26,053 bases of DNA from a virus. This document shows, one piece after another, positions 2,639-6,986 of the stretch (its first letter is position 1; each line of letters starts with the position of its first letter). Made by a program: the position numbers and the translations under genes. The DNA lies in the IMG/VR virus record IMGVR_UViG_3300005527_000258, positions 1-26,053 of that record. One strand, given 5' to 3'. The notes below the pieces were generated by a model. The model ran no database searches. It had not been told where the DNA came from and saw only the letters and a list, made by a program, of their open reading frames with translations.

Positions 2639-2648
2639 TGTCTTATCC

Positions 2649-2732
2649 GCGAGTATGGCGTAATGGTAGCCGCACCGGACTTAAAATCCGTTGGGAGTTA
2701 ATCCCGTGGGAGTTCGAGTCTCCCTACTCGCA
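2649..2732 (+). tRNA. tRNA-Leu (anticodon UAA)
   Basis: Acceptor GCGAGTA (2649-2655) pairs with TACTCGC (2725-2731). The anticodon loop CTTAAAA carries TAA at 2682-2684. A long variable arm marks it as a class II tRNA, and the T loop is TTCGAGT. CCA is not encoded; the discriminator A is followed by the -35 region of the next promoter. Confidence 0.93.
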
Positions 2733-2733
2733 C

Positions 2734-2762
2734 TTGACAATTCCAAGGTTCTGCCTTATAAT
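2734..2762 (+). promoter_or_regulatory. consensus promoter of tRNA-Ile(UAU)
   Basis: TTGACA (2734-2739), 17 bp, TATAAT (2757-2762), with the same GACAATT/AATTGTC inverted repeat and ATTGTCTTAT leader as the promoter at 2610. Confidence 0.85.
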
Positions 2763-2771
2763 TGTCTTATC

Positions 2772-2845
2772 GGAAACATAGCTCAACTGGTTAGAGCACA
2801 CGCCTTATAAGCGTGAGGTTCTGGGTTCAATCCCCAGTGTTTCCA
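2772..2845 (+). tRNA. tRNA-Ile (anticodon UAU)
   Basis: Acceptor GGAAACA/TGTTTCC, D stem GCTC/GAGC, anticodon stem CACGC/GCGTG with loop CTTATAA (TAT), T arm with loop TTCAATC. It reads AUA codons directly, without the lysidine-modified CAU tRNA that bacteria normally use. Confidence 0.93.
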
Positions 2846-2846
2846 C

Positions 2847-2875
2847 TTGACAATCTAAGATAAATGTCTTATGAT
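2847..2875 (+). promoter_or_regulatory. promoter of the interrupted tRNA-Arg
   Basis: TTGACA (2847-2852), 17 bp, TATGAT (2870-2875). GACAAT/ATTGTC repeat and ATTGTCTTAT leader as in the two preceding promoters. Confidence 0.8.
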
Positions 2876-2883
2876 TGTCTTAT

Positions 2884-2920
2884 GTCTCAGTAGCTCACTT
2901 GGATAGAGTATCTGATTTCT
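2884..2920 (+). pseudogene. tRNA-Arg(UCU), 5' half, interrupted in the anticodon loop
   Basis: GTCTCAG (acceptor), TA, GCTC/GAGT D stem, then TCTGA and TTTCT, ending after the anticodon TCT. The matching 3' half is found 568 bp downstream at 3489-3528: its CTGAGAC pairs perfectly with GTCTCAG. Joined, the two halves form a bacterial-type tRNA-Arg(UCU), with three of five anticodon-stem pairs intact (28-42, 29-41, 30-40). Either the tRNA is broken or the insert is spliced out; see the findings. Confidence 0.8.
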
Positions 2921-2921
2921 T

Positions 2922-3017
2922 AGAACAACCGCTTGGGCTCATAGTTAAGCGGATATAACCTTCGCCTTCTAAGCGAATGTCCCTGGTTCGATTCCAGGTG
3001 AGCCTGTTGGTTGTTCT
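2922..3017 (+). repeat. 9-bp inverted repeat enclosing tRNA-Arg(UCU)
   Basis: AGAACAACC (2922-2930) and GGTTGTTCT (3009-3017) are perfect complements and bracket the intact tRNA-Arg at 2935-3006. The stem can extend outward by a T-G and a T-A pair. In RNA it would present the tRNA on a stem, possibly a processing signal or the ends of the acquired tRNA cassette. Confidence 0.8.
2935..3006 (+). tRNA. tRNA-Arg (anticodon UCU), carried inside the insert
   Basis: Acceptor GGGCTCA (2935-2941) pairs with TGAGCCT (2999-3005, one G-U). D stem GTTA/TAAC, anticodon stem TTCGC/GCGAA with loop CTTCTAA (TCT at 2968-2970), T stem CCTGG/CCAGG with loop TTCGATT. CCA is not encoded. Its sequence differs clearly from the interrupted tRNA-Arg around it, so it is not a local duplication. 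Confidence 0.92.
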
Positions 3018-3041
3018 GAGTAACATACTGGTAAGTTGCTA

Positions 3042-3060
3042 CTCTTATAAATAATAAGAG
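3042..3060 (+). promoter_or_regulatory. late promoter TATAAATA within a palindrome
   Basis: TATAAATA at 3046-3053 is the consensus T4 late promoter. It lies in an inverted repeat, CTCTTAT (3042-3048) and ATAAGAG (3054-3060), 15 bp before the endonuclease start at 3075. Confidence 0.65.
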
Positions 3061-3074
3061 ATATCGTTACTTGT

Positions 3075-3521
3075 ATGAGGGAACATCATACTAAAAACAA
3101 AGGAGATCTTGGAGTCCTAAAAGCACAACTTGATCTATATGAGAAAGGATACTTAATTCTTACTCCTCATACAGAACATTCTGCCTTTGATCTTGTTGCC
3201 TACAAAGATGGAAACTTTTTAAGAGTTCAAGTCAAGTATAGAGCATCAAAAGATGGTAAAATAGAAGTTCCATTCAGGACTTGCTGGACAGATAAAAATG
3301 GAACACATACTCAAAATTATGATAAAAATGAAATTGATGTAATGTGCGTCTACTGTCCAGACACAGATATGTGTTACTACATAAATCCAAATGATTGTAG
3401 TAACACATTTGTCCTAAGATTAGTTCCTCCCAAGAATAATCAAAAAATTGGTATAAACTTGGCTGAAGATTATCTTAGTATTCCTGATAAGCAGTTGGTC
3501 GTTGGTTCGAATCCAACCTGA
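3075..3521 (+). CDS. PD-(D/E)XK homing endonuclease, I-Ssp6803I-like
   Basis: The first 60 residues carry the core of the group I intron-associated PD-(D/E)XK endonucleases typified by I-Ssp6803I, which sits in a tRNA-fMet intron of Synechocystis: helix GDLGVLKAQLDLYEKGY, then FDL with Asp39, then VQVKY with Gln52 and Lys54 (Q-x-K replaces the usual E-x-K in this family). The enzyme would cut uninterrupted tRNA-Arg genes and so spread the insert. The last residues (about 139 onward, ending GSNPT) are translated from the 3' half of the interrupted tRNA, and the stop TGA (3519-3521) lies in its acceptor stem. A late promoter precedes it; no strong ribosome binding site is seen. Confidence 0.8.
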   Translation: MREHHTKNKGDLGVLKAQLDLYEKGYLILTPHTEHSAFDLVAYKDGNFLRVQVKYRASKDGKIEVPFRTCWTDKNGTHTQNYDKNEIDVMCVYCPDTDMCYYINPNDCSNTFVLRLVPPKNNQKIGINLAEDYLSIPDKQLVVGSNPT

Positions 3522-3528
3522 GACGCCA
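3489..3528 (+). pseudogene. tRNA-Arg(UCU), 3' half with encoded CCA
   Basis: AAGCAGT completes the anticodon arm, T stem GTTGG/CCAAC encloses loop TTCGAAT, and acceptor CTGAGAC (3518-3524) pairs with GTCTCAG at 2884-2890. Discriminator G is followed by an encoded CCA (3526-3528), unlike most of the other tRNAs here. It abuts the next tRNA with no gap. Confidence 0.8.
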
Positions 3529-3608
3529 GCTCGAATGGTGGAATTGGTATACACAGTTGACTCAAAATCAACCGCTTCGGCTTGCAGGTTCGACTCCTGT
3601 TTCGAGCA
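3529..3608 (+). tRNA. tRNA-Leu (anticodon CAA)
   Basis: Acceptor GCTCGAA/TTCGAGC, anticodon stem GTTGA/TCAAC with loop CTCAAAA (CAA), class II variable arm around 3571-3583, T loop TTCGACT. It has no promoter of its own and begins one base after the CCA of the interrupted tRNA-Arg, so the insert separates it from the promoter at 2847. Confidence 0.9.
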
Positions 3609-3649
3609 TGAGATACTGAAATATCTCCGTATTACATTCTTAATTGATT

Positions 3650-3838
3650 ATGCCCAAAAAACAAGTTGTGAACACAAACTATGATCTTGGTTATTCCGCC
3701 AGGAATGAAAACCACGATACAATCCGTGATATTCGTATCAATTTTGAAAATCCAGATGATGAATTTGTTATGGAGAATTTAAATACATGGCTTCGTGCTA
3801 TTGGAACTGATCTTGAAGTAATACAAAAAAACTCTTGA
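3650..3838 (+). CDS. small hypothetical protein (62 aa)
   Basis: The ATG at 3650 (MPKKQVVNTNYDLGY) opens a 62-residue mixed-charge protein with a central DIRINFENPDDEF stretch. It lies between tRNA-Leu and tRNA-Gly, 41 bp after the former. No domain is recognised. An alternative TTG start two codons upstream is less likely. Its composition matches the small conserved proteins that are scattered among tRNA genes of T4-like cyanophages. The end of the gene overlaps a possible -35 element for the tRNA-Gly promoter region. Confidence 0.6.
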   Translation: MPKKQVVNTNYDLGYSARNENHDTIRDIRINFENPDDEFVMENLNTWLRAIGTDLEVIQKNS

Positions 3839-6863: not shown

Positions 6864-6986
6864 GTGACCCAAAATTGTCCTCGTCGTATGGACATTAAAT
6901 ATGACGACTGGTGCGGATGTGGAGGTTACTCCCGCCTGGTTTCCAATTTCCAGTTAAAGAATTGGTGGCGTGCATGGCAGACCTGA
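6864..6986 (+). CDS. tiny cysteine-containing protein (40 aa)
   Basis: GTG 6864 has GGAG six bases upstream. The frame reads MTQNCPRRMDIKYDDWCGCG and then GYSRLVSNFQLKNWWRAWQT. The frame is open back to the preceding stop, so GTG 6849 is an alternative start. Three cysteines and four tryptophans in so short a peptide are unlikely by chance and hint at a metal-binding or structured peptide. It is followed closely by a terminator. Confidence 0.5.
   Translation: MTQNCPRRMDIKYDDWCGCGGYSRLVSNFQLKNWWRAWQT

Follow-up and report, generated by a model that had tools for sequence, protein, structure and literature searches.

The locus described here raises the question of how a phage can carry an endonuclease gene in the middle of one of its tRNA genes when no intron can be detected that would restore the interrupted tRNA. 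The window, by which we mean the whole 26,053-nucleotide stretch of viral DNA analysed, has its closest DNA matches among Synechococcus phages (153 of 282 matching records are named Synechococcus and 35 Cyanophage) and is a virus of marine cyanobacteria. By ARAGORN and Rfam it contains seven complete tRNAs, including a tRNA-Arg(tct) at about 2935-3006, and Rfam also places a wcaG cis-regulatory RNA at 6875-6979 (RF01761, 68.4 bits). The answer that we consider quite likely is that the interruption is an intron-free, natural home-and-rescue element, carrying with it a spare of the gene that it breaks. The features concerned are the following:

2772..2846, + strand: flanking tRNA-Ile(UAU), the same neighbour as at the empty site of the related phage contig L287
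2884..2920, + strand: outer tRNA-Arg(UCU), 5' half through the anticodon TCT (sequence, ARAGORN)
2921..3488, + strand: insert of 568 nt, its placement ambiguous by one T
2920..2930, + strand: left arm TTAGAACAACC of an inverted repeat around the inner tRNA (sequence; fold z -4.97)
2935..3006, + strand: inner tRNA-Arg(UCU), complete (62.5 bits; G73 at 3006; no encoded CCA)
3009..3019, + strand: right arm GGTTGTTCTGA of the inverted repeat (sequence; fold)
3042..3060, + strand: hairpin CTCTTAT-AAATA-ATAAGAG with the presumed late-promoter-like TATAAATA at 3046-3053
3075..3521, + strand: I-Ssp6803I-like PD-(D/E)XK endonuclease ORF; the shared core extends to near 3485 and its tail continues into the 3' half of the tRNA
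3489..3528, + strand: outer tRNA-Arg(UCU), 3' half (3489-3525 plus encoded CCA at 3526-3528); the unbroken counterpart is L287 2022-2098
3529..3608, + strand: flanking tRNA-Leu(CAA), the same neighbour as at the L287 empty site

The original prediction was that a tRNA-Arg(UCU) is split here and that its halves still fit together. The split itself is borne out: the junction lies directly 3' of the anticodon, ARAGORN reads the joined halves as tRNA-Arg(tct), and in long-intron mode the program picked [2884,3528] unaided as a split gene, though with the anticodon misread. The fit is less complete than claimed, since the acceptor (7/7), D (4/4) and T (5/5) stems pair throughout but the anticodon stem pairs at only 3/5 positions, one of these two mismatches being present also in the unbroken gene of L287. 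Over all 74 nt, the joined outer tRNA is 87.8% identical to the intact tRNA-Arg in the phage records of S-WAM2 and S-SZBM1. When ARAGORN intron mode was applied to intervals of similar size, a split tRNA was called over 2 of 345 random and 15 of 291 tRNA-adjacent placements; because of this low background, and because an uninterrupted gene stands at the same place in a related phage, the split tRNA in the window is more than a chance reading.

Reading from the left, the insert consists of one repeat arm, the inner tRNA-Arg, the other arm, a short spacer with the TATAAATA hairpin and the endonuclease ORF. The predicted layout stands in that both the tRNA-Arg(UCU) and the endonuclease lie inside, but the insert ends at 3488 and the ORF continues beyond it into the 3' half. 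The inner tRNA is, as proposed, complete and different from the outer one, and every one of its stems is paired. Between fixed marks the unit measures 565 nt in all five distinct endonuclease-bearing versions compared (the window, L003, L004, L029 and the phage Sf-FR1), and six versions of the inner tRNA are identical at 70-72 of 72 positions, compared with 373-409 of 410 for the endonuclease. An inverted repeat clamping the inner tRNA is present in the tRNA-breaking clade, including L022, which has no endonuclease. The motif TATAAATA, which by its consensus we take to be T4-type late-promoter-like, was found in 11/11 aligned spacers; the folding energy of its hairpin is not significant (z only -0.83), and RNAalifold gave no clear structure for the spacer.

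By sequence and fold homology, the encoded protein is a member of the I-Ssp6803I-like PDDEXK_5 family, in agreement with the PD-(D/E)XK endonuclease that had been predicted in the insert. The ORF matches Pfam PDDEXK_5 (E 4.6e-38) and aligns with 2OST, presumably I-Ssp6803I, at E 7.8e-6, its VQVK falling on the VQVK of 2OST; the predicted structure (mean pLDDT 87.3) has 2OST_B as its top Foldseek match in the PDB (E 7.7e-11, TM 0.74). Among 30 endonuclease sequences D39 and K54 never vary and Q52 hardly does, and these we assume to be the catalytic positions. The dN/dS of 0.15 between the window and L003 suggests a working protein.

An empty version of the site is found in L287. Three long stretches of this contig align with the window, 1922 nt at 94.8% identity, 1322 nt at 95.5% and 1175 nt at 98.0%; in the tRNA region the identity is 78-82%. 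There the tRNA-Ile and tRNA-Leu(caa) known from the window flank an unbroken tRNA-Arg(UCU), and so a related phage with an uninterrupted gene at this site does exist; the halves do not occur only apart in relatives, an outcome that the original prediction had named as speaking against it. The unbroken counterpart of L003 and L004 is L275, which matches L004 over 96 and 110 nt beside the site at 94% and 98%, respectively, and that of L029 is L093. An exact 22-mer of the common unbroken anticodon arm occurs in at least 120 viral contigs. Near the junction, to its left and to its right, the filled alleles are unlike the empty ones. L004 resembles the common tRNA-Arg allele, and not L275, in both of its anticodon-arm flanks, which is what co-conversion during break repair would leave. 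The right flank in the window is also like the common allele; the left one is less clearly so, fitting both L287 and the common allele poorly, and we count this against our best explanation. The occurrence of filled and empty alleles at the same site, with flanks that look co-converted, is nevertheless the pattern that intronless homing would be expected to produce.

The same insertion point is used in five distinct outer alleles, namely those of the window (identical in L001 and L002), L003, L004, L029-L031 and L022, the last having both outer halves and the inner tRNA without the endonuclease. The endonuclease gene of L003 is identical to that of Sf-FR1 at 409/410 positions, while the flanks compared, on the L003 side a short downstream stretch only, do not match; from this contrast it can be concluded that the unit moves. 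The L004 gene is identical to that of Sf-FR1 at 408/410 positions, with short flank matches of 73% and 87%. The outer tRNA has fared differently among these loci. The 5' half in L029-L031 is not matched by the near 3' half (acceptor 3/7, counted on L029), and in L029 and L031 a fitting 3' half stands further on, after 689 nt. In Sf-FR1 a bit of the outer anticodon arm is left and little else of that tRNA; its complete genome of 196 kb has seven tRNAs, and its sole tRNA-Arg is of the inner type. Taken together, these comparisons firmly indicate, at the level of sequence, that a mobile unit has been inserted into an unbroken tRNA-Arg, that the same unit is present in several alleles and phages, and that its spare tRNA is conserved, being intact throughout and kept where the endonuclease is missing, with no intron detectable. 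They also support two earlier suggestions, since an endonuclease insertion with no Rfam intron match and a replacement of the same anticodon supplied by the insert are both seen by comparison in several phages.

A second unit with different parts was found in L002, a sibling of the window phage:

L002 1545-2163: tRNA-Leu/HNH unit; the window counterpart is 2644-2733

L002 is 100% identical to the window over 1544 nt and 99.94% identical over 3291 nt, the exception being window 2644-2709, which is the 5' part of a tRNA-Leu(UAA). In its place L002 has 591 nt comprising a complete foreign tRNA-Leu(UAA), the TATAAATA motif and the greater part of an HNH endonuclease ORF (Pfam HNH, 23.4 bits; cut-off 21.4), and only the last bases of the old tRNA-Leu, its 3' end, are left after the unit. 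A near-identical foreign tRNA-Leu occurs in L006 without an HNH gene. In phage S-CRM01 an HNH relative (44%) also follows a tRNA-Leu, there with the anticodon CAA, and no broken tRNA was seen at that locus. The tRNA-Leu(UAA) and HNH unit, known from one contig, thereby appears to be of similar design to the tRNA-Arg unit.

The mechanism that we favour for the spread of the tRNA-Arg unit is as follows. In phages that share a cell, tRNA-Arg(UCU) genes are probably cut in the anticodon loop by the endonuclease, and repair would then copy the whole 568-nt unit, along with a short part of the adjacent anticodon arm, into the break. That tRNA-Arg(UCU) is the target is supported by the bacterial relatives described below, many of which lie beside or inside this gene, in L171 and L172 at the very position at which the phage unit is inserted. 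The tRNA-Arg of the recipient would be split and lost, and the divergent inner tRNA-Arg(UCU) arriving in the same insert, if expressed and charged, would take over the reading of AGA and AGG as the working copy. These two codons make up 115 of the 189 Arg codons in 16 window ORFs. Because the inner tRNA would replace the broken one in this reading, the cost of carrying the unit would be low. As expected of a home-and-rescue element, the unit appears to carry a complete copy of the gene that it breaks.

The death of the outer tRNA is a probable step in this scheme. Its decay was considered as proof, and that argument is weakened by the finding that G55 of L003 and L004 is also present in their intact counterparts; the damage that is left comprises a further mismatch in the window, a defective D stem in L004, the chimeric halves of L029-L031 and the near-complete loss in Sf-FR1. 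It is uncertain whether the inner tRNA would resist cutting. It differs from the common target at 10 of 23 positions around the cut, but an 11-bp core over the cut is common to both, the anticodon arm of the L007 inner tRNA is that of the L003 outer tRNA, and in Nostocales genomes an intact tRNA-Arg resembling the target stands next to the endonuclease gene, all of which makes resistance doubtful.

The linkage of this tRNA to the endonuclease extends well beyond the tRNA-breaking clade, which allows a different reading of the spare: a tRNA-Arg(UCU) that had long stood beside the endonuclease lineage may have been carried along as a passenger into another tRNA-Arg, its benefit being incidental and not selected. 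Among 22 viral contigs with a relative of the endonuclease, a tRNA-Arg(tct) adjoins the gene in 19; in L040 the tRNA-Arg was recognised by eye (ARAGORN: Pyl), in L294 one lies 423 nt away, and in L013 none was found in the stretch fetched. In a second phage clade (L005-L012 and L034, assigned by eye, six contigs also by ARAGORN intron mode) the pair of tRNA-Arg and endonuclease stands outside any tRNA; such linkage without a broken tRNA favours a passenger, and we count it against our best explanation. ARAGORN intron mode called a split tRNA over the endonuclease in 9/26 phage loci, and the calls in L005 and L010 were rejected as chance, their ends being borrowed from other tRNAs. A tree of 55 rows places the six members of the tRNA-breaking clade, Sf-FR1 among them, in a single group (100/98) inside a larger phage group (98/95); ten rows were omitted because of stops or insufficient length, four loci were excluded beforehand, Nostocales were thinned, and the root is a midpoint with several long branches. 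The linkage is also found in bacteria, where 41 of 71 genome loci have a tRNA-Arg(tct) within 400 nt of the endonuclease (just upstream in 33, just downstream or overlapping in 7, and upstream on the opposite strand in 1), which again suits a passenger. Such a tRNA is nevertheless hard to reconcile with the near-identity of the inner tRNA in its six versions and its retention in L022, with its position as the only tRNA-Arg of Sf-FR1, and with the similar construction of the unrelated HNH unit, and we regard this reading as rather unlikely.

Several further arrangements were observed among these relatives. In 33 of the bacterial loci (L198-L224, L226-L228 and L230-L232), mostly Nostocales but in L204 Woesebacteria, the endonuclease lies 66-107 nt downstream of an intact tRNA-Arg(tct) on the same strand. 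In L293 (2927-3520) an endonuclease (57% identical) is followed by a complete tRNA-Arg(tct), both standing between two halves of another tRNA, which when joined are nearest to tRNA-Lys, with the anticodon unreadable; this is possibly a mirror-image arrangement and is offered as a lead only. In L016 (2929-3464, Enterococcus phage EFP01) a distant relative of the endonuclease (31%) apparently lies between two tRNA halves, with no spare tRNA and little room for an intron, and this too is a lead only. More distant PDDEXK_5 relatives are found in L295-L300 (phages SM5, FKP10, NJ12, HATV-2 and Navo, and an uncultured phage), five of which, L300 being the exception, have a tRNA gene (Asn, Ser, Ala and others) within 400 nt.

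A second alternative to the home-and-rescue element is that the insert is removed by an unrecognised intron or some other excision route, the outer tRNA still being made and the inner one an extra. The bacterial relatives lend this some support, as they lie either in group I-type introns within tRNA-Arg(UCU) or next to this gene. Around the endonuclease, a split tRNA was called in 24 of the 71 loci, of which ARAGORN reads 14 as Arg-TCT, and all seven that were read by eye among the other ten are Arg-TCT (L165, L168-L170, L180, L182 and L185); L164 is split by eye, calls in L166, L197 and L207 were not counted owing to a complete tRNA-Arg beside the gene, and five loci (L174, L177, L178, L186 and L193) were assigned to none of these classes. 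In L171 and L172 the intron follows U36 (U36|A37), the same spot at which the phage unit is inserted. Thirteen of the bacterial introns share a core in a script alignment with the ORF left out, 6/19 loci having been dropped when the pattern missed an exon, and L177 has a free-standing endonuclease about 190 nt downstream of an ORF-less intron very similar to these 13. Excision would also suit the outer halves, whose slight decay at several loci we count against our best explanation: in L003 every one of the four stems pairs, L022 and L004 pair well with one D-stem pair missing each, and the anticodon-stem sequences of L003 and L004 differ together on both sides of the insert.

These last differences, however, fit co-conversion too, and L029-L031 have chimeric halves, while in Sf-FR1 hardly anything of them is left. 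None of the eight Rfam matches at gathering score in the window is an intron, nor is any of the 13 matches up to E 5 in 2740-3700, and so the clear group I core that had been named as the other outcome against the original prediction did not appear. Rfam gave no intron at gathering score in 20 loci either. This silence on endonuclease-bearing inserts is weak evidence, because the 3' parts of two bacterial introns that do contain an endonuclease went equally unrecognised; the intron without an ORF in L177 does match Rfam group I introns (E 8.6e-6), though at 29.8 bits it is below the gathering score of 50. The insert leaves only about 82 nt outside the inner tRNA and the ORF core. In group I introns the exon ends in U and the terminal base of the intron is G; here the outer exon ends in T36 and the insert in ...CCTGAT, which does not fit the terminal G. 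Release of the inner tRNA would, moreover, be expected to cut the precursor. With no catalytic core found by Rfam and no boundary of the expected kind, a group I or other intron in the window was rejected, and we consider excision of any kind very improbable. Equally improbable is an accidental rearrangement with an inactive endonuclease, neither homing nor rescuing, since although the tRNA clusters of T4-like phages are recombination-prone and the ends in L029-L031 and Sf-FR1 are rearranged, one exact insertion point in five alleles, a fixed unit length and an ORF conserved as described above argue against it.

If the home-and-rescue reading is correct, it may apply more widely. There could be a general phage class in which endonucleases of unrelated families (PD-(D/E)XK and HNH), each travelling with a complete isoacceptor tRNA, destroy a resident tRNA-Arg(UCU) or tRNA-Leu(UAA) and replace it by an uncuttable one, a spare gene being used where the same endonuclease line elsewhere relies on a self-splicing intron; to this extension we would give an even chance. 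Mobile endonucleases that enter important genes must spare their host, and the known ways of doing so are self-splicing introns, inteins, landing beside the target and replacement of the gene end. The carriage of an entire spare RNA gene would, if true, be a further way. It would offer one explanation for the association of homing endonucleases with tRNA genes in phages, and would provide a testable series (intron-borne, neighbour and spare-carrying) in which endonuclease family and target gene are the same throughout.

I-Ssp6803I is the endonuclease of a group I intron in a cyanobacterial tRNA-fMet. It has the same fold (2OST) and belongs to the same family as the window endonuclease; however, it is intron-borne, whereas in the window no intron was found and the broken tRNA is seemingly substituted and not spliced. 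A 2014 review states that all phage introns seen up to then were in protein genes despite the many phage tRNA genes, and it also describes intronless homing (PMC3984707). In the open-licence literature we found no description of a tRNA-breaking endonuclease with a whole spare tRNA. Among known systems, T4 SegB is described as a free-standing endonuclease of intronless homing that cuts tRNA regions (PMC2988022, PMC13096335), and its cuts have been mapped within tRNA genes in a 2026 paper (PMC13096335). Like the window unit, SegB lies outside an intron, in a tRNA cluster, with a late-promoter-like element and a hairpin upstream (PMC2988022), but it stands between tRNA-Arg and tRNA-Ile, while the window unit is inside a tRNA, breaks it and brings a substitute. 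The mobile ORFs of fungal mitochondria (Allomyces, Glomus) bring a foreign C-terminus for the gene entered and so, like the window unit, combine an endonuclease gene with a replacement for the part cut off (PMC3630166). In the fungal case the gene end is replaced and a hybrid gene results, whereas the window unit would supply a whole RNA gene and leave the old one in two pieces. An engineered parallel is provided by gene drives that were built independently and whose design the window unit would mirror. In the HomeR and cleave-and-rescue drives, an element with a nuclease inserts into an important gene and brings along a functional copy of it (PMC7968924); these drives are engineered, use Cas9 and carry a deliberately recoded copy, whereas the window unit is natural and carries a divergent tRNA of uncertain resistance.
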